A stretch of 64,000 nucleotides of DNA from an uncultured Ectothiorhodospiraceae bacterium (GTDB lineage: Bacteria > Pseudomonadota > Gammaproteobacteria > UBA6429 > Thiohalophilaceae), in the NCBI GenBank assembly GCA_947259575.1, contig CAMYMU010000024.1, forward strand, positions 1 to 64,000. Reading direction: 5' to 3'. The notes under the pieces were generated by a model. The model saw nothing but the letters and a program-made list of their open reading frames with translations, did no database searches and was not told the DNA's origin. The position numbers and the translations under genes are program-made. Positions 24,767 through 36,074 of this stretch are shown here, piece by piece (position 1 is the stretch's first letter; the number at the start of each line of letters is the position of its first letter).

Positions 24767-25705
24767 TTAAATCGTGATTTCCTGGGGGAATGGTTCCAGG
24801 TAATTCTGTTTGTTAATGTATGGAACGGGATACTTGCGAAGGTGATGCTTCAGCAACAGCAAGATTGCCGATAAAGGTAGATAACTGTTGCGGTACGACT
24901 CAAATGAGTTGAGTAATTCTACTTTATCTGCCTTGCTTAGCTTATTTTTAAGATAACCCATGATATGCATTAGCACATTAACGTGCCGGCCCTTAGTTAC
25001 ATTATTACGCATTACCAACATGAAGTGCTCAATATAACCCTGCCGGCGTTCCTTAAGATTCTGATAATTTGTTTCAGCAACCCACCGTCCTAAGTATCGA
25101 TATTCTGCATGATTACGTGCCATTAGCATCAGCTTGTGAGTCGCGTGAAATTCTATAAAGGCGGTCAGGTTTTCATCGGGATTAGGGATAGCGTGCCAGC
25201 GGTGCAGCGCATAGACGCGTTCTATAAAATTCTGTTGTAAGTCGCTATCGTTTAAACGTCCTTCTTCTTCGACAGGTATCCACGGAAACTTTTCCATAAA
25301 TATTTTTGCGAATAAGCCGATTCCATCATGACGTCGATGTCCGTCTTTATGCACAACAACAGGAACTCTAAATGCACCACAGGTTGGGGAACCTTTTTTG
25401 AAAATAAAACCATCGAGCTGGGAGTACTTTTGCGTAACGGAATTGGCATATTCTGACATGGAATCCGTATAGTCCTGCTGACTATCTTTGCTTGCCACTA
25501 AACGCGTTTCCCCGTCGATATCCTGCAGGCGAATCGTTTGACGGGGGACGCCCAGGCCAATACCGACTTCTGGGCATACTGTTTGAACATCCATGTGGTT
25601 TACCAGGATATCAGTAATGAGTCGGTTTTTCTTATGACCACCGTCAAATCTAACTGAATTCCCCATCAAACAACTACTGATTCCAATCTCAGGTACAGTG
25701 TTCAT
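24767..25705 (-). CDS. DUF523-DUF1722 protein (YbbK-YbgA fusion)
   Basis: A 312-residue protein. Residues about 5-150 are DUF523 (ISSCLMGNSVRFDGGHKKN, then KKGSPTCG), and residues about 185-300 are DUF1722 (HATHKLMLMARNHAEYRYLGRWV). Such fusions are commonly found next to photolyase and MerR-B12 genes and are induced by light in several proteobacteria. Molecular function is unknown; the conserved cysteines suggest a thiol or metal role. It lies 3 bp after the cyclopropane synthase-like gene. Confidence 0.87.
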   Translation of the reverse strand: MNTVPEIGISSCLMGNSVRFDGGHKKNRLITDILVNHMDVQTVCPEVGIGLGVPRQTIRLQDIDGETRLVASKDSQQDYTDSMSEYANSVTQKYSQLDGFIFKKGSPTCGAFRVPVVVHKDGHRRHDGIGLFAKIFMEKFPWIPVEEEGRLNDSDLQQNFIERVYALHRWHAIPNPDENLTAFIEFHATHKLMLMARNHAEYRYLGRWVAETNYQNLKERRQGYIEHFMLVMRNNVTKGRHVNVLMHIMGYLKNKLSKADKVELLNSFESYRNSYLPLSAILLLLKHHLRKYPVPYINKQNYLEPFPQEITI

Positions 25706-25708
25706 GGT

Positions 25709-26983
25709 TTACTCCAGGTGGTCACAGCGGTTATCGGGTTTGACAAGAAGCATATGTATATCGCTGATTGCGCGTTCAATGAAACCACCTTCGCAGTAAC
25801 AGAGATAGAACTCCCACATGCGGATGAACTCATCGCTGTAGCCCATGCTTTTAATCGCATCGATATTCCTGTCTATGTTCTCACGCCATTGATTCAAGGT
25901 TGTTGCGTAATGAGGTCCGATATCGGTTAAGTTATAAAGACGCATATCAGTGGAACGGGTCACTGATGACAGGATTGCCGTATTTGAAGGAATACAACTA
26001 CCAGGGAAGATATAGCGTTGAATAAAGTCTACCGAGTTCTTAGCTGCATCGTAGTTTTGATCTGCGATTGTGATGGCCTGCAATAACATCATACCGTCCG
26101 GTTTTAACAGGTCACTACATTTGTTGAAGTAAGTATCGTAGTATTGGTGACCAACGGCTTCGATCATCTCGATCGACACCAGTTTGTCATATTTCCCTTC
26201 AAGATCACGATAGTCTTCAAACATTACCGTAACTTTGTCGGTAAGCCCTTCGTTCTCGACTCGCTCACAGGCCAGTTCATATTGTTCTCTCGAGATTGTG
26301 GTAGTTGTAACCTTGCAGCCATAATATTTGGCTGCATGAATCGATAAACCACCCCAGCCTGTACCAATTTCCAAAAGATGGTCACTAGGGTGCAAGTCAA
26401 GTTTGTGGCAAACCGTGTCGAGGCGATTCACCTGTGCCTTATGCAAGCTCATCTCTGGATTGGCAAAGACGGCAGAGGAGTACATCATGGTTTGATCGAG
26501 CATCAAAGAAAAGAAATCATTACCCAGATCATAATGGGCTGCGATATTCCGACGGCTTCCCGTTTGAGTATTACGATTTAGCCAGTGAAGCCCCTTTTGT
26601 ACCGGAATAGTAAGACGTGCAAGACCACTTTCCACACTTTCAAGGACATGCCTGTTCATGATAAACAATCTTATCAGGCCAGTTAAATCATTCGTTTCCC
26701 AATAATTTGACATGTAGGCTTCCCCGGCACCGATTGATCCACCGAAGGTGATATCACCATAGAAACGGGTATCTTTCACGCTGATTTGAATACGTAATGA
26801 GCAGCGTTCAGTCGTTTTGCCAAAGGTGTGCATTTCACCCTTATCAAAAATAACTAACTCACCATCCTTTATATCCTGAAGGCGCTTGAGTAAAATCTTT
26901 TTCGCCAGACCATCAAGTAAGCGTGGTTTGATGGTTGAGCCGGGAGTGATACGAGTCTCGATAACAGAAGTATTAGCATTCAT
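25709..26983 (-). CDS. Cyclopropane-fatty-acyl-phospholipid synthase-like methyltransferase (COG2230)
   Basis: A 424-residue SAM-dependent enzyme. The SAM site is HLLEIGTGWGGLSIHAAKYYG near residue 200. The family-specific RYIFPGSCIPS (near 325) and YLCYCEGGFIERAISDIHMLL (near 395) segments are present, so it belongs to the CFA/mycolic-acid methyltransferase group that adds a methyl or methylene to unsaturated acyl chains in membrane lipids. COG2230-COG3496-COG2907 gene trios occur in singlet-oxygen or light regulons, and here the three are adjacent with 4-bp and 32-bp overlaps. Confidence 0.9.
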   Translation of the reverse strand: MNANTSVIETRITPGSTIKPRLLDGLAKKILLKRLQDIKDGELVIFDKGEMHTFGKTTERCSLRIQISVKDTRFYGDITFGGSIGAGEAYMSNYWETNDLTGLIRLFIMNRHVLESVESGLARLTIPVQKGLHWLNRNTQTGSRRNIAAHYDLGNDFFSLMLDQTMMYSSAVFANPEMSLHKAQVNRLDTVCHKLDLHPSDHLLEIGTGWGGLSIHAAKYYGCKVTTTTISREQYELACERVENEGLTDKVTVMFEDYRDLEGKYDKLVSIEMIEAVGHQYYDTYFNKCSDLLKPDGMMLLQAITIADQNYDAAKNSVDFIQRYIFPGSCIPSNTAILSSVTRSTDMRLYNLTDIGPHYATTLNQWRENIDRNIDAIKSMGYSDEFIRMWEFYLCYCEGGFIERAISDIHMLLVKPDNRCDHLE

Positions 26984-27771
26984 ACTTTATTCGCCTGTTC
27001 GGCGCCTCCTTTGGAATCAGTAATATTATCTGGATGGGTGTAAAAGGGCGTCTTTTTCAAAAATAATCGGAACGCCTGCCAATAGATGCCAAAAATAACC
27101 TTTAAAGTCATAGTTGGAAAGATGGTAAGTACGCGCGCAGCATTTAATCCAGTAAAAGGCTTCTTTTTTAATGATAAAGTCGCATCAAATACTTTTTTCT
27201 CATGTTCAAAGTTGTTCATATGCACAGCAAGAGATTTATCAGGCTTTGTGAAACGCCAGTCGTATTGCATGTCTATTGGCATGAAAGGAGAAATATGAAA
27301 ATCCTTATCAAATTGGAATTTCATATACGGCTTTTTCTTCATCTCTTCATTTAATGGTAAAACATAGACGTGACGTTCACCCCATGGGGTGTTGGTGATC
27401 TCCGTAACGATATATTCTAGCTGGCTATCTGTTTTGTCAAAGCAGTAGTAAAAGCTGACTGGATTGAATACGTATCCAAAATAACGCAAATGAGTGAGTA
27501 GACGTACCGGTCCATTCGGACGTTTGCCTGTCTCTTTTTCAACTCGATCGATTACAGCCTGCTTCAGAGGGACATTCTTATCACCCAGGTAATCACTACG
27601 TTTGAACCAGGCCAATGTGGGTTTGGTTACCGACCAGAACCAGCGATTTCTAAAGACTTTATCCAATTCATCAAGGTCAAGATACATATAAAACAGCTTG
27701 TACTTGAAGTTATGTGGAGTTGGCGCGTTACGACGATGCCTAACTTGCCCTTCGTAGATGCAAGTGTGCAT
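26980..27771 (-). CDS. DUF1365 protein (COG3496)
   Basis: About 263 residues; the DUF1365 signature is seen as YEGQVRHRRNAPTPHNFKY at the start, FGYVFNPVSFYYCFD near residue 108 and VTEITNTPWGERHVYVLP near 130. The function is unknown but it is a constant partner of COG2907 flavoproteins and CFA-like methyltransferases, implying a lipid-modification role. The start is set at ATG 27771, preceded by AAGGAG; a longer in-frame ATG at 27792 lacks one. It overlaps the flavoprotein gene by 32 bp. Confidence 0.85.
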   Translation of the reverse strand: MHTCIYEGQVRHRRNAPTPHNFKYKLFYMYLDLDELDKVFRNRWFWSVTKPTLAWFKRSDYLGDKNVPLKQAVIDRVEKETGKRPNGPVRLLTHLRYFGYVFNPVSFYYCFDKTDSQLEYIVTEITNTPWGERHVYVLPLNEEMKKKPYMKFQFDKDFHISPFMPIDMQYDWRFTKPDKSLAVHMNNFEHEKKVFDATLSLKKKPFTGLNAARVLTIFPTMTLKVIFGIYWQAFRLFLKKTPFYTHPDNITDSKGGAEQANKV

Positions 27772-29014
27772 GATTATTCTCCTTAAAGTCATCTATTGCA
27801 TTTAACGCGCTAACGACACCATCTTCATGAAAGCCAAACCGCCAATATGCACCACAATAGTAGGTGCGCTTAGCACCATTGAGTTCAGAATGACGTTTCT
27901 GAGCGGCTACACCATCTGGTGTAAATACAGGGTGGTGATAGGTAATCTTTTTGATTATCTTGGCAGGATCGATAGCCTGGCTGTTATTCAGGGTCACACA
28001 CAATGTTGAATCAGTTGTCAGATTCTGCAAAATATTCATGTTGTATGTTAATGCGACATGATCATGCGCTTCTGGCAGGATATGATAATTCCAGGCCGCC
28101 CAGGCTAACTTACGTTTTGGTAATACGCTGTCATCGGTATGTAATACAGCTTCGTTTTCCTGGTAGGGAATAGCACCGAGTATTTGATTCTCTAAATCTG
28201 ATGCATCAGAAAGAAGCGACAAAGCTTGATCGCTATGCGTAGCAATGAAGACCTGATCAAACACCTGCTTTGTTCCATCATGCAATTGAATATCGACATA
28301 ATCAGAGTGTCGTTCGATCGATTTAACAGGGGAATTAGTATGTATTTTGTCAGCAAAAGAAGCGGTTAACTTTTTGACATATTCTCGTGAACCACCTTTA
28401 ATCACATACCATTCAGGTCGGTCGTCTACACTTAGCATACCATGATTATGGAAAAAGCGAATAAAGAAACCAGCTGGAAATTTCAACATCTGTTTAGGGT
28501 GCGAAGACCAGACTGCTGCACCCATGGGTAACAAATACTGTTCAATAAACTCTTTTGAATATTTACCTTGTTGAAGAATGTCGCCTAAGCTTTTATCGGC
28601 CTCTTCTGTATCTAAAAGCGCAACCGCATTCTTATTGAAGCGCAAGATATCGTTTATCATCCGATAGAATGAAGGCTTAAGCAGGTTAGAGCGTTGTGCG
28701 AAAAGGGAATTGAGTGAGGTACCATTGTATTCCAGGCCTGATTTCTCGTTTTTCACGCTAAAACTCATTGATGAAGGCTGAACCTCGACATCCAATTCTT
28801 TAAGTAAACGAGTAAAATGGGGATAAGTTTTATAATTAAATACTATAAACCCAGTATCGACGGCATGTGTTGACTGCTCAAGAGAAACATTATGAGTGTG
28901 TGTATGTCCACCTATATAGTTATTGGCTTCAAAAACCGTGATGTCATGACTCTTATTTAAGTGATAAGCCGCCACGTTTCCAGCAATGCCTGTTCCAATA
29001 ATTGCAATTTTCAT
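27740..29014 (-). CDS. FAD/NAD(P)-binding amine-oxidase-like flavoprotein (COG2907)
   Basis: A 424-residue flavoprotein that begins with the FAD-binding motif KIAIIGTGIAGNVAAYHL and continues with FEANNYIGGHTHT and, near residue 50, VDTGFIVFNYKTYPHF. The C-terminal YYCGAYWRFGFHEDGVVSAL closes the FAD site. COG2907 proteins are predicted oxidases or desaturases; linked to CFA-like enzymes they may act on methylated or unsaturated acyl chains, for instance in furan or branched fatty acid synthesis. That pathway is an inference from neighbours. Confidence 0.87.
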   Translation of the reverse strand: MKIAIIGTGIAGNVAAYHLNKSHDITVFEANNYIGGHTHTHNVSLEQSTHAVDTGFIVFNYKTYPHFTRLLKELDVEVQPSSMSFSVKNEKSGLEYNGTSLNSLFAQRSNLLKPSFYRMINDILRFNKNAVALLDTEEADKSLGDILQQGKYSKEFIEQYLLPMGAAVWSSHPKQMLKFPAGFFIRFFHNHGMLSVDDRPEWYVIKGGSREYVKKLTASFADKIHTNSPVKSIERHSDYVDIQLHDGTKQVFDQVFIATHSDQALSLLSDASDLENQILGAIPYQENEAVLHTDDSVLPKRKLAWAAWNYHILPEAHDHVALTYNMNILQNLTTDSTLCVTLNNSQAIDPAKIIKKITYHHPVFTPDGVAAQKRHSELNGAKRTYYCGAYWRFGFHEDGVVSALNAIDDFKENNHAHLHLRRAS

Positions 29015-29018
29015 AATT

Positions 29019-29984
29019 TCATCCTGCTATCTTAGATTCATTTTTTGAGTTACGGCATTCATCCATAACTCGTTTTGGAACGGGCCTTAAATCCCATATC
29101 AATCTACTACTTTGAAGTAGACGCAAAACATAGTATGAAATATCGATTTCCCACCAACGGAATCCCTGGCGCGCTGATCCTGGATAGTAATGATGATTGT
29201 TGTGCCAGCCTTCACCAAACGTGAGTAGAGCCAGTAGCCAGTTATTCCGGCTATCGTCACGCGTTTTGAACCGCCGTTTACCGATGGTATGGGCAAGTGA
29301 GTTGATTGTGAATGTAACGTGATACAGAACAAGTGTTGAAATAACAAAGCCCCATACAACCAATTGCAGACCACTTGTTTCCAGGGAAGGATAATAGGCA
29401 GAAAGCATTTCACCGAGACCGTAAAGTGATAGTGCGAGTAAAATAGGGATGAGTATGTCAAAACGGTCAATAAATCTTAGTTCTGGGTATTTAGCAAAGT
29501 CAGAAATTCGATCTAATCGAGTAGCAAAATTATGCTTTGACAAAAACCATCCCATATGACTCCAAACAAAACCATGCAGACGAGGAGAGTGCTCATCGTT
29601 TTCCTTGTCGGCATTTACATGGTGTGCACGATGATGGGCTGCCCACCATAAAGGGCCTCTTTGTGCAGAGCTTGCGCCAATTACTGCAAAAATAAATTGA
29701 ACGGCGCGAGATGTTTTGAATGCCTTATGTGAAAAATAACGGTGATAAAAGCCTGTAATTGCAAACATTCTGATCATATAAAGTGCGACTGCAATTATAA
29801 CGGCAATCGGGCTGACACCAACTAAAAATACAAACATTACCGAAAGGTGTAGCAGAATAAATGGTATAGTCCGTGTCCAGTCGATTGACTTCTTAAACGT
29901 GGTATCCTTGATGTCGTTTGCTGCATAACTGTCAAACCAACGGATCAGCGAGTAGAAAAAAGATTTAGCTGTTAAAGATGTCAT
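29019..29984 (-). CDS. Acyl-CoA/acyl-lipid delta-9 type desaturase
   Basis: A 321-residue membrane desaturase of the OLE1/DesA type with three histidine boxes: HRYFSH near residue 76, HRAHH near residue 117, and HNNHHYYP near residue 255. About four hydrophobic helices flank the boxes. It would supply the cis double bond that the CFA-like methyltransferases in the same operon need. It lies 4 bp before the flavoprotein gene and 12 bp after the lipocalin gene. Confidence 0.92.
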   Translation of the reverse strand: MTSLTAKSFFYSLIRWFDSYAANDIKDTTFKKSIDWTRTIPFILLHLSVMFVFLVGVSPIAVIIAVALYMIRMFAITGFYHRYFSHKAFKTSRAVQFIFAVIGASSAQRGPLWWAAHHRAHHVNADKENDEHSPRLHGFVWSHMGWFLSKHNFATRLDRISDFAKYPELRFIDRFDILIPILLALSLYGLGEMLSAYYPSLETSGLQLVVWGFVISTLVLYHVTFTINSLAHTIGKRRFKTRDDSRNNWLLALLTFGEGWHNNHHYYPGSARQGFRWWEIDISYYVLRLLQSSRLIWDLRPVPKRVMDECRNSKNESKIAG

Positions 29985-29996
29985 AGTTATATCCTA

Positions 29997-30515
29997 TTAC
30001 CAACTTTGAGGTACTTTTTTAAGCTCGTTAATGTCGTATCCTTCCTGCTCAATGATTTGGACCATTTTTTCGTATTCTTTTTCAGGAACAGTCGGATTTC
30101 GTGCCATAATCCATACATAATCACGTTTTATGCGACCAATGATGGTGTGGTTGTAATCTTCATCCAGATATAAAATCCGGTAATCAGACTTGATAGGCCA
30201 GATGAACTGCATACCCCAGACAGCATTCGATTCTTTGTCGTATATGTAACCAGTAGGGTGGTATTCTTTTTTCTCACCAGTAAAACTGTCCTGGTAAAAA
30301 CTGAATGTTGTTGCGATTGAACCATCTTCATTGAGTTTGTATGTCTCGATGGCATTGTGTGCGCCTTCCTCGATAAACGTAGGTATATTCGCAATCACAT
30401 ACCAGTCACCCATGAAGCGATTGATATCAACGTTTTTTTCGCTACGGATGGGTGGATATGAGCTGCATCCGACTAGAAACAAAAATGGAATAAATGTCAG
30501 ACATGCGCGTTTCAT
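29997..30515 (-). CDS. blc: Lipocalin lipoprotein, Blc-like
   Basis: A 172-residue outer-membrane lipocalin. The lipobox is FLVGC after a short signal peptide (MKRACLTFIPFLFLVGC), and the first lipocalin motif is FMGDWYVIANIP. A longer reading frame runs upstream to 30626, but ATG 30515 gives the signal peptide and has AAGGTG just before it. Bacterial lipocalins bind fatty acids or lysophospholipids and help membrane repair. Placement in an operon of lipid-modifying genes fits. Confidence 0.9.
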   Translation of the reverse strand: MKRACLTFIPFLFLVGCSSYPPIRSEKNVDINRFMGDWYVIANIPTFIEEGAHNAIETYKLNEDGSIATTFSFYQDSFTGEKKEYHPTGYIYDKESNAVWGMQFIWPIKSDYRILYLDEDYNHTIIGRIKRDYVWIMARNPTVPEKEYEKMVQIIEQEGYDINELKKVPQSW

Positions 30516-30525
30516 CTTTATCACC

Positions 30526-31167
30526 TTATTGAATCTTGTAACGCAGCACAGAGCCGCTATTTGTGGTTGAATTGAGTGCCAGCCACTCATTATTCTTCGA
30601 ATACCAGAGGTCAATGATAAAATCATCGGTAGTCAGGCGATAATGAGTGGTGGGTGTGAGCTTCCTGCGAACCATGATCATTTCTTCGCCAAGGTTTTCC
30701 ACAGTAACAGGTGTGATTTCACCCGTTTGTGAGTTCAATAAGTGCTGGCTGCTTAAAAACGTCGGGTCCCAATATGCAAATGTTTTAATACAGCCTTCTG
30801 TGCTGTGTTGTCCTGTAGGCGTTTTGATATAAAAATTATCGCTTACATACTCAGCCTGTACGTAAAGTTCGTCTCCGTTGTTACTGGTTTTTGATCTAAC
30901 AGACTGTAAGCACTGGCCATCCCACACTTCATAATTTGTATGTCGGTAACTGTATGCATTGATGAACAGAAAATAAACATCGAACTCGGCATTTACTGTT
31001 ACATGGGTTTTATTATTGTAAGAAGCAACTTTAAATGTGTGCTCACCGATTTCTTGTTCATCCAGATATACCTTAAACTTCCAGCTCTGATTCGCATGCG
31101 CAAATGTGCTAGCGGTTAAAAATATTAACGCGATGCTCAACCTACAAGTTAATTTTTTAATCAACAT
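30526..31167 (-). CDS. Exported protein of the DUF6134 type
   Basis: A 213-residue protein with a signal peptide ending near STFAHA-NQ. The mature part is rich in beta-strand patterns (WKFKVYLDEQEIGEHTFKV) and has two cysteines that could form a disulfide (CLQSVRSK and EGCIKTF). The family has no known function but recurs in photolyase/CFA operons. It overlaps the DUF1295 gene by one base and precedes the lipocalin by 10 bp. Confidence 0.75.
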   Translation of the reverse strand: MLIKKLTCRLSIALIFLTASTFAHANQSWKFKVYLDEQEIGEHTFKVASYNNKTHVTVNAEFDVYFLFINAYSYRHTNYEVWDGQCLQSVRSKTSNNGDELYVQAEYVSDNFYIKTPTGQHSTEGCIKTFAYWDPTFLSSQHLLNSQTGEITPVTVENLGEEMIMVRRKLTPTTHYRLTTDDFIIDLWYSKNNEWLALNSTTNSGSVLRYKIQ

Positions 31168-31997
31168 TATGCATGCTCCTCTCTAAGCTTTTCTTGGTGC
31201 TTCACAGAGCCGGGAATAAATGCATTTGTTCGCTTAACGTAGTCTTCGTACTCAGGTCGACGCTTAGTAATCGTTTCTTCGAGCATCACAACACCAGAAA
31301 ACTTGAGTAATAGCCATGTCATGATCAGAGGCGAAATGATACTCCACCAGGCACCCATTGATAATGCAATCAAGTAAAAGCCCCACCAGATAACGCATTC
31401 ACCAAAATAGTTAGGGTGGCGGCTGTACTTCCACAATCCTTTGTCCATCACCTTGCGGTGATTAGAAGGGTTGCTCTTAAAACGGGCTAATTGATAATCA
31501 GCAACAGTCTCGAAAAACATGCCGACAATCCAGAGCATGATGCCTAACGTTAATAACGTGGTGGTAAGAAGATTCTGTTCGAAGCCAAGTGTAATAGCGC
31601 CAAGCAGCGGCAAGCTAATGATCCATGCTAGTACTGCTTGAAATAGAAAAATGATAAACAGACTCTTGAAAGCAAAGTTTGGACTATATTTCTTACGTAT
31701 CTCAACATAGCGATGATCTTCAGGTTCACCCCAGTTTCGCCAGGTTAAATGAATCGAAAGACGCAACGCCCAAACCAGGACAAGGACTAGAATAGCTATA
31801 TTTATAAAGCCAAAGTCATTGGCGGCTAACAAATAAACCAATGCTGCAGCCACGAACATAATTGACCAGGTACTATCGACAATGCTGACATCTTTGAGGC
31901 GTAGACTTAGCAGCCATGTCGCGACAGCCAGGATAGCTATCGCAGCCAGGCCTTCAAAGTAGACGGACCAATGACTAAAATCGATTATCCCTTGCAT
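31167..31997 (-). CDS. DUF1295 membrane protein, steroid 5-alpha-reductase-like
   Basis: A 276-residue polytopic membrane protein. The C-terminal GLWKYSRHPNYFGECVIWWGFYLIAL segment is the hallmark of the DUF1295/5-alpha-reductase/isoprenylcysteine methyltransferase superfamily, where it forms part of the NADPH or SAM site. Likely substrate is a lipid. It overlaps the DUF2878 gene by 13 bp, so translation is probably coupled. Confidence 0.87.
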   Translation of the reverse strand: MQGIIDFSHWSVYFEGLAAIAILAVATWLLSLRLKDVSIVDSTWSIMFVAAALVYLLAANDFGFINIAILVLVLVWALRLSIHLTWRNWGEPEDHRYVEIRKKYSPNFAFKSLFIIFLFQAVLAWIISLPLLGAITLGFEQNLLTTTLLTLGIMLWIVGMFFETVADYQLARFKSNPSNHRKVMDKGLWKYSRHPNYFGECVIWWGFYLIALSMGAWWSIISPLIMTWLLLKFSGVVMLEETITKRRPEYEDYVKRTNAFIPGSVKHQEKLREEHA

Positions 31998-32533
31998 GGT
32001 ATTTTCCTCTGTGTATTCTTATCAAGATTACTTGTGTATCGAGACAGTATTAATAGCAGTGGAGTTATCACACCCCAACCAATGGCTAAGGCAATGAGCC
32101 CACTTTGCTGATCGATAAACTGAAGTGCGCCAAGCTTACTGCCTGCCAGATAGGCCATCGGTCCACCAACTAAACCAAAAATAATTGCGTAGAATAGCTT
32201 TTTGTTTAGCCACTTTAGCGAAACGTTGAGTGTGGTAGTAAATAGCCCCCACATGATGACAATCCAGTAAGGAGCGGTACCTGGGAATAATTGGCCTGAT
32301 GAATAGCTGATCCAGTTTTGATAGACCAGCAATGAATCCCAGAAAAATCCAATTAGCATGACAATCAAGATTAACAACAATTCACGCGGCCATAGCTCAG
32401 TAGTGAATAAATGATATGCAATCACTAGAATTGCAATCAAACTACCAACCATTGGATAGTTGTATGCACCACCAAGTACACACGCAAACCAACCGAGCTG
32501 GAAAAGTAAAATGTTAGTTAGGATTCTAGGCAT
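31985..32533 (-). CDS. DUF2878 membrane protein
   Basis: A 182-residue inner-membrane protein with about six hydrophobic stretches, starting MPRILTNILLFQLGWFACVLGG. The central WIVIMWGLFTTTLNVSLKWLNKK segment is typical of DUF2878. Start at ATG 32533 is chosen, because the longer open frame to 32608 would run into the coding end of the methyltransferase gene. Function unknown; the family co-occurs with DUF1295, CFA-like and photolyase genes. Confidence 0.8.
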   Translation of the reverse strand: MPRILTNILLFQLGWFACVLGGAYNYPMVGSLIAILVIAYHLFTTELWPRELLLILIVMLIGFFWDSLLVYQNWISYSSGQLFPGTAPYWIVIMWGLFTTTLNVSLKWLNKKLFYAIIFGLVGGPMAYLAGSKLGALQFIDQQSGLIALAIGWGVITPLLLILSRYTSNLDKNTQRKIPCKG

Positions 32534-32543
32534 TAGTAGTGGC

Positions 32544-33596
32544 TCACTTAGCAGGTTTTTCAAACAGGTAATGACTGACCCACCACTGCTGTCCATTGTC
32601 ATAACCAAACAATTCAGCGCATGCCATGAAAAAGATCCGCCAGCGTGACCACCACTTTTTGGTATTTACCTCGCCATAGATATCATTAAATACTGGCGTT
32701 AATTCAGTTTGGTGCATATCCATTCTTTCAAGCCATGCATTTGCCGTCTTCTCATAGTGTGTGCCATCCCATCTCCAGCGCCGTACAATTTTGAGATCAT
32801 TCTGGAACGTCAGAGGTAGATCATCGCTGGGCATCATTCCACCAGAGAAAAAGTAACGACTCATCCAGTCGCTTGGTCCGTTGTCTTCAAAAGCATAGCT
32901 CGCAGTACGATGCACAAAAATATGCTTAAAAAACTTACCACCTGGCTTGAGCCAGTTAGAAACACGCTTATATAGCTCAGGCCAGTTACGCATGTGTTCA
33001 AACATCTCAACTGAAACGACACGATCAAAATGGTTATGATCGATATCGAAATTATTCATGTCACAGGTGATAATTGAAATATTCTCTAGTCCTGATGCTC
33101 GAGCGTTATTCTCAATATGCTCTCGTTGTGAGTTTGAATTAGAAACGGCTGTAATCTTACTGTTTGGATAGTGTTTGGCCATCCACAGAGTTAGAGAACC
33201 CCAGCCACAACCCAGCTCCAGGATTTCCTGCCCATCTACCAGGTCAGCGTGGAGACAAGTTTTATGCAATGCGGCTGTTTCTGCATCAGCCAGGGTTGTT
33301 ACATTCTCTGGCCAATAAGCAGAGCTGTATTTTAGATTAGGTCCTAGTGACATCAGATAGAATTCTGCAGGGACTTCGTAATGTTGTTCGTTTGCCTTCT
33401 CTGGCACTAATGCAATCGGTGCTGTACGCATATGCTCAATAAATTCTTGTCGTAACTCATCCATTTTTTCAACGTCATAGGCATTAATCTCTTTTAAACG
33501 TTGTTTTGTTAAGAATCGTATACCTCTTCGAATCACTGCATCAGGCACAAGACCCTGTTCGGTTAAGTCGAAAGCAAGTTGACCTGCTGAATTCAT
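32544..33596 (-). CDS. Second CFA-like SAM methyltransferase
   Basis: A 350-residue class I methyltransferase. The SAM site is ILELGCGWGSLTLWMAKHYP near residue 120, followed by VVSVEMFEHMRNWPELY near 190 and a GGMMPSDDLPL segment near 255. It is a divergent CFA/coclaurine-N-methyltransferase relative, distinct from the enzyme at the other end of this operon. Plausible substrates are unsaturated acyl chains of phospholipids. Directly after the MerR regulator (22 bp), it is the first structural gene of the operon. Confidence 0.85.
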   Translation of the reverse strand: MNSAGQLAFDLTEQGLVPDAVIRRGIRFLTKQRLKEINAYDVEKMDELRQEFIEHMRTAPIALVPEKANEQHYEVPAEFYLMSLGPNLKYSSAYWPENVTTLADAETAALHKTCLHADLVDGQEILELGCGWGSLTLWMAKHYPNSKITAVSNSNSQREHIENNARASGLENISIITCDMNNFDIDHNHFDRVVSVEMFEHMRNWPELYKRVSNWLKPGGKFFKHIFVHRTASYAFEDNGPSDWMSRYFFSGGMMPSDDLPLTFQNDLKIVRRWRWDGTHYEKTANAWLERMDMHQTELTPVFNDIYGEVNTKKWWSRWRIFFMACAELFGYDNGQQWWVSHYLFEKPAK

Positions 33597-33618: not shown

Positions 33619-34527
33619 TTATTGCTCGACAGGCAATATTTGATGGATATTGTGCATCCCGACTATCAGGTCATGACCTAAAACATGTGCGCCTGAGGAT
33701 TCAATCTCATCACTCAGGTGCTCAGAGGTTTTGCCTCCAACCCAGACGGGAACGTTGGTGTCTTCAATAAGTTTTTTTAACTGGGTGTGTAATTTTTCCT
33801 CATCGATACCGACTGAGCTTGATAAAACCACACCGTCACTATTGCTACGATGTACAACTTCAGCCAGTTGCTCTATTGGCATGTCCGCGCCCAGTAAAAT
33901 GATGCGGTATCCACGTGCATGGGCAGCAAGTGAAAATAGCAGTAAACCAAATTCATGTTGTTCACCGGGTAAACAGGCAGCAATCAGACGCGGTCCACGA
34001 TTTTTCTGGTTTTGATGGTGGAATCGGGCACCTAACTTATTTCGCATGAATACACTGAAGAAGTGTTCTTCAGCAATACCTGTGCTTACGTGCATCCATC
34101 TTTGCCCCAGCTTTTCAAGCAGGGGGAGCAGTAACTGCTTGGTGACAACGTCAACAGGGTAAAGTGACATCGCTTCGTTATAAGTTGCCTCTAAAACAGC
34201 TTCATCGAAGTTGTTTACACCCCGCAACATGTCTTCCTGGTACTGAGTCCAGTGGGAACTGCCATCCAGGTCCTTTTCTTGCTTATCGCTGGCAATTTTC
34301 AGGGCTTCTTTGACACGACTGATAGCAATTCCTTCATCAATCAGTTGCAGAATGAGTTTGATGCGCTCAACGTCCTCATCACTGTAGAGGCGATGTCCCG
34401 ATTCCGTCCGATTCGGCTTTATAAGACCATATCGTCTTTCCCAGGCGCGCAAGGTCACGGGGTTGACGCCTGTCATTGTCGAAACGGCACTGATTGGAAA
34501 GAGACCTTGTGGCTGTTCTGAGAGCAT
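33619..34527 (-). CDS. CarH/LitR-type B12-dependent light-sensing MerR regulator
   Basis: A 302-residue protein. Residues 10-80 are a MerR helix-turn-helix (TLRAWERRYGLIKPNRTESGHRLYS). A helical bundle follows with the CarH light-sensing motif W144-x9-E154-H155, and then a cobalamin domain with E189-x-H191-x2-G194 (H191 is the expected lower cobalt ligand). In CarH-type regulators, adenosylcobalamin in the dark builds a DNA-binding tetramer and light breaks it, relieving repression. It heads the 12-gene minus-strand operon and is divergent from photolyase. Operator-like repeats cover its own promoter. Confidence 0.93.
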   Translation of the reverse strand: MLSEQPQGLFPISAVSTMTGVNPVTLRAWERRYGLIKPNRTESGHRLYSDEDVERIKLILQLIDEGIAISRVKEALKIASDKQEKDLDGSSHWTQYQEDMLRGVNNFDEAVLEATYNEAMSLYPVDVVTKQLLLPLLEKLGQRWMHVSTGIAEEHFFSVFMRNKLGARFHHQNQKNRGPRLIAACLPGEQHEFGLLLFSLAAHARGYRIILLGADMPIEQLAEVVHRSNSDGVVLSSSVGIDEEKLHTQLKKLIEDTNVPVWVGGKTSEHLSDEIESSGAHVLGHDLIVGMHNIHQILPVEQ

Positions 34528-34535
34528 ATTTCACC

Positions 34536-34566
34536 TTATACAAAAGTTATACAAACTATAGACAAA
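34536..34566. promoter_or_regulatory. CarH-type operator: three 11-bp-spaced nTnTACAn repeats
   Basis: TTATACAAA at 34536 and again at 34547, then ATAGACAAA at 34558, give a period of exactly 11 bp. The first two match the CarH half-site nTnTACAn fully; the third has one mismatch. CarH tetramers bind head-to-tail 11-bp direct repeats in this way. The array overlaps the -10 box and start region of the merR promoter, just before the coding start at 34527. Confidence 0.8.
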
Positions 34567-34584
34567 ACCGATCATTCTTGTCAA
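34555..34584 (-). promoter_or_regulatory. Sigma-70 promoter of the merR-led operon
   Basis: On the minus strand, -35 TTGACA (34584-34579, perfect) and -10 TATAGT (34560-34555, five of six) with an 18-bp spacer. The transcription start would fall about 20 bases before the merR ATG. The CarH-type repeats at 34536-34566 overlap the -10 and start site. Confidence 0.75.
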
Positions 34585-34633: not shown

Positions 34634-34662
34634 TTGTACGAAGCTATACTAAACATGTACAA
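34634..34662. promoter_or_regulatory. Second CarH-like repeat set in front of photolyase
   Basis: Half-sites TTGTACGA (34634), CTATACTA (34644) and ATGTACAA (34655) match nTnTACAn with one, one and zero mismatches. Spacing is 10 and 11 bp, less regular than the merR-side array. A -10-like TATACT lies within (34645-34650). The photolyase ATG is at 34677. Likely light control of photolyase by the same regulator. Confidence 0.55.
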
Positions 34663-34676
34663 ATAGAGATAAGCAT

Positions 34677-36074
34677 ATGAAAAGCAAGCAGAAACAACAA
34701 CAATCAACAGCAACGACGCTGCTCTGGTTCAGACGTGATTTTCGCCTGGTAAATAATCCAGCATTCAGTTTTGCCATTAGTCAGGGCGGACCGGTGTTAG
34801 CTATATATATAGAGAACACAGGGCCTGATCTGTCCTGGCGACCCGGTGCGGCTTCACGCTGGTGGTGCCACCACAGTTTAATGGCGTTATCAGACAAGCT
34901 TGCTGAGCAGGGTGTTGAGCTTAAATACTTTCACGGTGACCCAGGCAAACTCATTCCTTCAATCATGCATGAATCCGGTGCAACCACGATTTGCTGGAAT
35001 CGGTTATATGAACCCGAGGAATTGAAACTCGATCAATCAATCGAACGATCGCTCGATGAGCTTGCCGTACACAAGTTTGATAGTCATCTACTGTTTCCAC
35101 CAGGTACGCTTCTTAACCAACAAGACCAGGCTTATCGTGTGTTCACACCATTCTGGAAGAAGGCAAGAGTGAAGCTGGATTTCGAAGGGGTTAATCCAGT
35201 GATTAGAAAACAGCGTAAAAAAATAACAGGCTATAACAAAAAACTGCTCGAAGAATGTAGTTTGGGTGAGTTGGCTTTACTAGATAAAAACAATTGGCAT
35301 ACAAAATTAAACCAGCACTGGGTACCCGGTGAGGATGCGGCATTAAAAACAGCCAAGCGGTTTATTAAAAATAAGATAGAGACGTATGATACGCAACGTG
35401 ACATTCCTTCAGTTCAGGGAACAAGTAAATTATCACCGCACCTTCACTTTGGCGAAATAACGACAACACAACTGGTTTATTCACTGCTGAGAGAGGACTG
35501 GCCCGGCACACATTTGTCTTCGGTTGAGCGGTTTTTAACTGAACTAGGCTGGCGTGAATTTTCAACTCACATCTTGTGGCATTTCCCACATACCGTTAGC
35601 AAACCTATGAATGACAAATTTTTGAATTTCTGGCCAAAAAAAGTTAACCAAAAGTATCTAAATGCATGGAAAACAGGAATGACAGGTATTCCAATTGTTG
35701 ACGCAGGTATGCGTGAGCTATGGGAAACGGGGAGCATGCATAATCGAGTAAGAATGATAGTGGCGTCTTTTTTAACCAAGAATTTAGGGATTCACTGGTT
35801 GCACGGTGCAAAATGGTTTTGGGATACGCTTGTTGATGCTGATCTAGCTAGCAACACGTTAGGCTGGCAGTGGGTAGCAGGTTGTGGTGTCGATGCAGCA
35901 CCATATTATCGAATTTTTAATCCGTATACTCAGGCTGACAGGTTTGATAAAGAACAAAAATATATCCAGAAATGGGCTATCGAGTCAGGTAAACATGGAT
36001 TAACACCGATTATAGATATTAAAGCTAGCCGTCAGTTGGCCCTGGAAAGATATAAAAAATCCAACAGGTCTTAA
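34677..36074 (+). CDS. phrB: Deoxyribodipyrimidine photolyase (class I CPD photolyase)
   Basis: A 465-residue FAD photolyase that repairs UV-made pyrimidine dimers using blue light. Near the start TLLWFRRDFRLVNNPA marks the antenna-binding domain. The FAD/DNA domain has LTELGWREFSTHILWHFP near residue 285, TGIPIVDAGMREL near 340 and NTLGWQWVAGCGVDAAPYYRIFNP near 395. It is divergent from the B12 light regulator, a classical arrangement that makes repair light-inducible. Low-level similarity to cryptochromes is expected, but the full photolyase motif set favours repair. Confidence 0.95.
   Translation: MKSKQKQQQSTATTLLWFRRDFRLVNNPAFSFAISQGGPVLAIYIENTGPDLSWRPGAASRWWCHHSLMALSDKLAEQGVELKYFHGDPGKLIPSIMHESGATTICWNRLYEPEELKLDQSIERSLDELAVHKFDSHLLFPPGTLLNQQDQAYRVFTPFWKKARVKLDFEGVNPVIRKQRKKITGYNKKLLEECSLGELALLDKNNWHTKLNQHWVPGEDAALKTAKRFIKNKIETYDTQRDIPSVQGTSKLSPHLHFGEITTTQLVYSLLREDWPGTHLSSVERFLTELGWREFSTHILWHFPHTVSKPMNDKFLNFWPKKVNQKYLNAWKTGMTGIPIVDAGMRELWETGSMHNRVRMIVASFLTKNLGIHWLHGAKWFWDTLVDADLASNTLGWQWVAGCGVDAAPYYRIFNPYTQADRFDKEQKYIQKWAIESGKHGLTPIIDIKASRQLALERYKKSNRS

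Follow-up and report, generated by a model that had tools for sequence, protein, structure and literature searches.

Three tandem 11-bp repeats lie over the promoter of a merR-type gene in a 64,000-nucleotide stretch of DNA (the window) from an uncultured Ectothiorhodospiraceae bacterium. We consider it very probable that the array serves as an autoregulatory operator for a CarH-type (class I LitR) AdoCbl-dependent dark repressor, which would control an operon of lipid and repair genes and probably also the divergent photolyase gene, phr. The design of the array is of a known kind. What it predicts to be under light control here, though, is an operon for membrane lipids and repair instead of carotenoid genes. 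To the original prediction for this locus, we add a second array, comparative evidence, the wider conservation of the operon, and a caveat about a histidine.

Three direct repeats overlap the carH promoter

The array, the promoter, and the gene for the regulator are as follows.

34533..34565, + strand: operator 1, three 11-bp direct repeats (nnnnTnnACAn) with cores at 34537, 34548, and 34559
34555..34584, - strand: carH promoter, sigma-70-type, with TTGACA (34584-34579), N18, and TATAGT (34560-34555); a consensus match whose -35 box is invariant in five family members
33619..34527, - strand: carH (class I litR), encoding a MerR DNA-binding domain and an AdoCbl-binding domain (302 aa)

On the + strand, the half-sites read TATACA (34537-34542), TATACA (34548-34553), and TAGACA (34559-34564). 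All of them are TnnACA, and together they span 34537-34564 with a period of exactly 11 bp (11 and 11). Published CarH operators consist of three or four tandem 11-bp repeats of nnnnTnnACAn that lie over the -35 or -10 box (PMC9304148), and operator 1 has both this form and this kind of overlap with promoter elements. So the three repeats with an 11-bp period that were originally placed at 34536-34566 are confirmed. They had been fit to the half-site nTnTACAn, which is correct for the first two; the third repeat, being TAGACA, fits only the published TnnACA (PMC9304148).

The placement of the repeats over the -10 box and start of a near-consensus promoter also held up. TTGACA-N18-TATAGT matches 11 of 12 consensus bases, is the top-scoring promoter of its region, and reads toward carH. 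The repeat farthest from carH (DR3) shares two bases with the -10 box, the expected start point falls at DR2, and the leader before the ATG at 34527 contains DR1. In the middle of the spacer between the -35 and -10 boxes there is a GATC (34570-34573). It is invariant in 5/5 family members, and neither the half-sites nor the promoter boxes account for it.

The array is conserved at carH promoters

The carH upstream regions of four relatives from the same genus or family (L001, L002, L014, and L017) retain all three repeats, including TAGACA, as well as the TTGACA box. The statement that few CarH/LitR operators are this clear was therefore too strong, as close relatives have the same array. Across five family members, 24 of 31 columns are invariant in operator 1 and 14 of 19 in operator 2 (described below), as compared to 10 of 60 in the stretch that separates operator 2 from the -35 box.

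In the window's own genome (3,451,807 bases, both strands), the 28-bp pattern TnnACA-N5-TnnACA-N5-TnnACA has just one exact match, and the reversed control has none in the same scan. All other three-repeat matches within the window have two mismatches each, and their count is at the shuffled level. In nine related genomes, we used a three-repeat pattern that was slightly narrower. It has 9 matches, and 6 of these are upstream of carH, in 6 different genomes. The other 3 are elsewhere (one in G322 and two in G082), and the controls gave 1 match. A stricter two-repeat pattern has matches in 7 of the nine, all of them upstream of carH, and the controls for these genomes have none. Overall, the array is conserved at carH promoters and, across the genomes searched, is very rare elsewhere.

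The spacing of the half-sites is widely shared as well. Among 38 carH upstream regions from many families, 26 contain a pair of half-sites (TRTACA, allowing one mismatch) spaced at 11 bp. Each of the other spacings from 7 to 29 bp occurs in at most 11 regions, and the next most common, 22 bp (11 regions), is itself two repeats. Similarly, 11-bp direct pairs dominate an oriented matrix scan, and shuffles never gave more than 6 pairs of any geometry. A clear 11-bp pair is absent from the remaining 12 regions (L003, L004, L033, L034, L038, L039, L042, and L046-L050), so the rule does not extend to every relative.

If up to three mismatches are allowed, the counts in the window's own genome (10+6) are close to those of the control (7+5), so no further CarH targets can be named there. 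A candidate site at C1:129730 falls within the coding sequence of a FlgI-like protein, and we took it to be a chance match. Another 11-bp half-site pair (G000:C7:3530-3546; L061) lies directly upstream of a membrane-protein gene near a contig end. This pair is a possible further target of CarH, or could be due to chance.

The regulator is a CarH-type protein that lacks the bis-His histidine

The regulator contains MerR, B12-binding_2, and B12-binding domains (all four Pfam models are above cut-off), and residues 6-265 align with CarH from Thermus thermophilus (E about 1e-34). CarH homologues are said to be defined by two motifs: Wx9EH, which caps the adenosyl group, and the B12-binding motif ExHx2Gx41SxV/Tx22-27GG (PMC8156234). 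The regulator has Wx9EH (WMHVSTGIAEEH at residue 144), and it has an ExHxxG-type motif, EQHEFG-x42-SSV-x24-GG, whose x42 exceeds the published x41 by one residue. The domains, the alignment, and the two motifs agree with the original assignment of the merR gene to the CarH/LitR type. Where class II LitR is recognized by having only the four-helix B12 domain, this protein also has the Rossmann B12-binding domain (PF02310). Its score against the NCBIfam equivalog TransRegCarH is below the cut-off (150.9 vs. 400 bits), but TransRegCarH is still the best model, and its cut-off, which serves to name the close relatives of a single protein, lies outside the family definition of PMC8156234. The genome also encodes one PduO-type adenosyltransferase (E 6.9e-61); a CobA/BtuR-type adenosyltransferase (PF02572) was not found in it.

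A caveat concerns the light state. In the Thermus protein, H132 is the second axial ligand in the light (the bis-His adduct), and the H132A mutant cannot monomerise in the light (PMC11796333). The equivalent residue in the window's regulator, just after the Trp of Wx9EH, is Met145. In fact, none of the 35 motif-bearing CarH-type proteins (the window's own included) has a histidine at this position, so conservation of the bis-His light adduct of Thermus does not extend to this set. Other cobalamin photoreceptors vary at this position or lack the histidine (PMC11796333), so it is not a defining feature of CarH. Nevertheless, given the behavior of H132A, light release of the Met145 regulator may proceed differently or less well than in Thermus CarH.

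A predicted lipid and repair operon with conserved gene order

From carH (34527) down to 24388, 12 genes lie on the same strand and either overlap or are separated by gaps of at most 22 bp. These were originally described as a 12-gene operon, which is a reasonable prediction. The 11 genes behind carH are:

32544..33596, - strand: CFA-synthase-like methyltransferase
31985..32608, - strand: DUF2878 membrane protein
31167..31997, - strand: DUF1295 (steroid reductase-like) protein
30526..31167, - strand: DUF6134 protein
29997..30626, - strand: lipocalin (the true start is probably inside the frame)
29019..29984, - strand: fatty-acid desaturase
27740..29014, - strand: FAD-dependent amine-oxidase-like oxidoreductase
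26980..27792, - strand: DUF1365 protein
25709..26983, - strand: second copy of CFA synthase (CFA-type methyltransferase)
24767..25705, - strand: RudS-type tRNA s4U desulfidase (TudS + DUF1722; PMC11417400)
24388..24756, - strand: CbiX-type chelatase, the last gene of the predicted operon

This gene order is common to several families: G032 keeps it for 12/12 genes, and G029, G039, G020, G322, and G336 keep it for nine to eleven. UfaM and its partners make furan fatty acids in Rhodobacter sphaeroides (PMC7380195), and the products of this operon may include furan fatty acids. The CbiX-type chelatase is also present in G032 and was not detected in the more distant operons that we compared. It is a possible link between tetrapyrrole or B12 metabolism and the B12 light sensor.

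The same genome contains a second MerR-type gene (G000:C49, L059:2046-6237; 329 aa, with no B12 domain found). Its neighbors encode a short-chain dehydrogenase, a BLUF blue-light sensor, and a glutathione peroxidase. This is possibly a second, flavin-based light-response locus, which we take to be comparable to BluR/BluF of E. coli.

A second array precedes the divergent photolyase gene

About 86 bp from operator 1 there is another array, which was overlooked originally.

34645..34661, + strand: operator 2, TATACT (34645, degenerate) and TGTACA (34656), 11 bp apart in the same orientation, 15 bp before the ATG of phr
34677..36074, + strand: phr, the divergent DNA photolyase gene

In the window, only one half-site of operator 2 is intact. 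The other is degenerate, and this one substitution makes the array weaker. Relatives from the same genus retain operator 2 as an exact 11-bp pair: in L001, L002, and L014, it reads TATACA-N5-TGTACA, while in L017 and L015 it has one degenerate half-site. The photolyase gene adjoins operator 2 in L001 and L002; tblastn found no photolyase next to the array in L014, L017, or L015. So operator 2 persists where the divergent gene differs. Also, G336 belongs to another family, and its carH and divergent rudS genes flank a perfect array of three repeats. The conservation of operator 2 and the array in G336 suggest that CarH also controls the divergent gene. As operator 2 had been missed, the regulatory prediction should be extended to phr. 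However, consensus scoring of the intergenic region found no convincing promoter for phr, so we are less certain of its repression than of the other half of the model. The distance between the two operators is conserved; we do not take this as a hint of looping, as common descent explains the distance equally well.

Comparison to known systems

The CarH operator of Thermus thermophilus (PDB:5C8D, 5C8E, and 5C8F) shares the three tandem TnnACA repeats at 11 bp, and both AdoCbl motifs are shared as well. In Thermus, one repeat includes the -35 box, whereas here the array is over -10/+1, with TnnACA on the antisense strand. The predicted regulon also differs (lipid and repair genes instead of carotenoid genes), and the bis-His histidine is absent here. 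The operators from Bacillus megaterium and the Myxococcales are tandem 11-bp repeats too, overlapping the -35 or the -10 box (PMC9304148). Some of their repeats are degenerate, as in operator 2, but they have four or five repeats and, in myxobacteria, are associated with carotenoid genes.

The class II LitR operons of Pseudomonas putida and P. mendocina are similar in gene content. These share a light-inducible photolyase, an FAD oxidoreductase, and ufaM, and their hexamer, TRTACA, is similar (PMC9758184). The light-inducible set also includes rudS, as here (PMC11417400). In P. mendocina, the litR, photolyase, and ufaM set is induced about 6- to 33-fold by light, under the control of class II LitR (PMC9758184). 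In contrast to the regulator described here, class II LitR has no Rossmann B12 domain. A LOV protein switches it, and its operator is TRTACA-N12-TGTAYA rather than 11-bp direct repeats (PMC9758184). Finally, the furan fatty acid genes of Rhodobacter sphaeroides, under ChrR/sigma-E, are a case in which photo-oxidative stress controls enzymes for fatty-acid methylation and desaturation, but through another regulator (PMC7380195).

Alternative explanations

Could the repeats be a chance feature of AT-rich promoter DNA? The intergenic region is 149 bp and 71% A+T, and the promoter boxes are similar to the half-site. But a three-repeat array arose in only 4 of 40,000 first-order Markov simulations of this region, and the actual array is unique in its genome, is conserved against a diverged background, and recurs at carH in other genera and families. 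We give next to no credence to chance, which is refuted as far as sequence can refute it. It also seems very improbable that the regulator is a classical MerR activator acting on a dyad in the spacer, with the direct repeats being incidental. There is such a dyad (GACAA-N4-GATC-N4-TTGTC, between -35 and -10), and it is conserved in 5/5 family members, but the -35 consensus and the TTGT of DR3 are enough to produce its arms. (We rejected an inverted half-site at -35, as in the dyad reading, because the -35 consensus and the half-site explain the arms.) Furthermore, 11-bp direct repeats are a leading geometry across the class, which inverted pairs at 20 bp are not, and the direct repeats run past +1, which is a repressing position.

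The remaining alternative accepts that CarH binds and represses, but as a sensor of B12 status or a light-insensitive repressor (either like CarA from Myxococcus or by needing an antirepressor partner). The missing histidine would fit with this, and both CarA and class II LitR function without direct B12 photochemistry (PMC8156234, PMC9758184). On the other hand, the regulator has the full cobalamin motif as well as Wx9EH, which CarA lacks, and cobalamin photoreceptors elsewhere do without the same histidine (PMC11796333). Also, the photolyase, RudS, and lipid genes make up a light-stress set. We consider this alternative unlikely and favor an AdoCbl-dependent dark repressor that responds to light.

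A model for light control

In characterized CarH proteins, an AdoCbl-bound oligomer occludes the promoter in the dark, and light cleaves AdoCbl (PMC8156234). We infer DNA binding, repression, and the light response at these operators from such relatives, in agreement with the dark repression and light induction that were originally predicted. In the dark, AdoCbl-loaded CarH would oligomerize on the three direct repeats and cover the -10 box and the start site. RNA polymerase would be blocked, and carH and the 11 genes behind it would be repressed. The same protein would probably repress phr through the weaker operator 2, just ahead of the start codon. Green, blue, or UV light would break the Co-C bond and CarH would leave the DNA. 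Both units would then be induced, yielding lipid methylation and desaturation enzymes, the lipocalin, the tRNA s4U desulfidase, and the photolyase. Because carH is the first gene of its own operon, it would repress itself, so re-repression on return to the dark would be possible.

A broader proposal is tentative, and we lean slightly against it: that the CarH of this gammaproteobacterial clade works without the bis-His adduct, via paired operators, on a regulon for lipid remodelling, tRNA s4U removal, and photolyase. This would make it the class I, B12-based counterpart of the class II LitR regulon of Pseudomonas, with a different chemistry of light release.

Because of the missing histidine, how light releases CarH proteins of this kind can be tested directly. 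For B12 light repressors in Gammaproteobacteria, the repeats provide a specific operator rule, with essentially one match per genome, at carH. And an operon for lipid modification and repair, with a tRNA desulfidase and a photolyase, would be tied to a B12 photoreceptor instead of to LOV and class II LitR.
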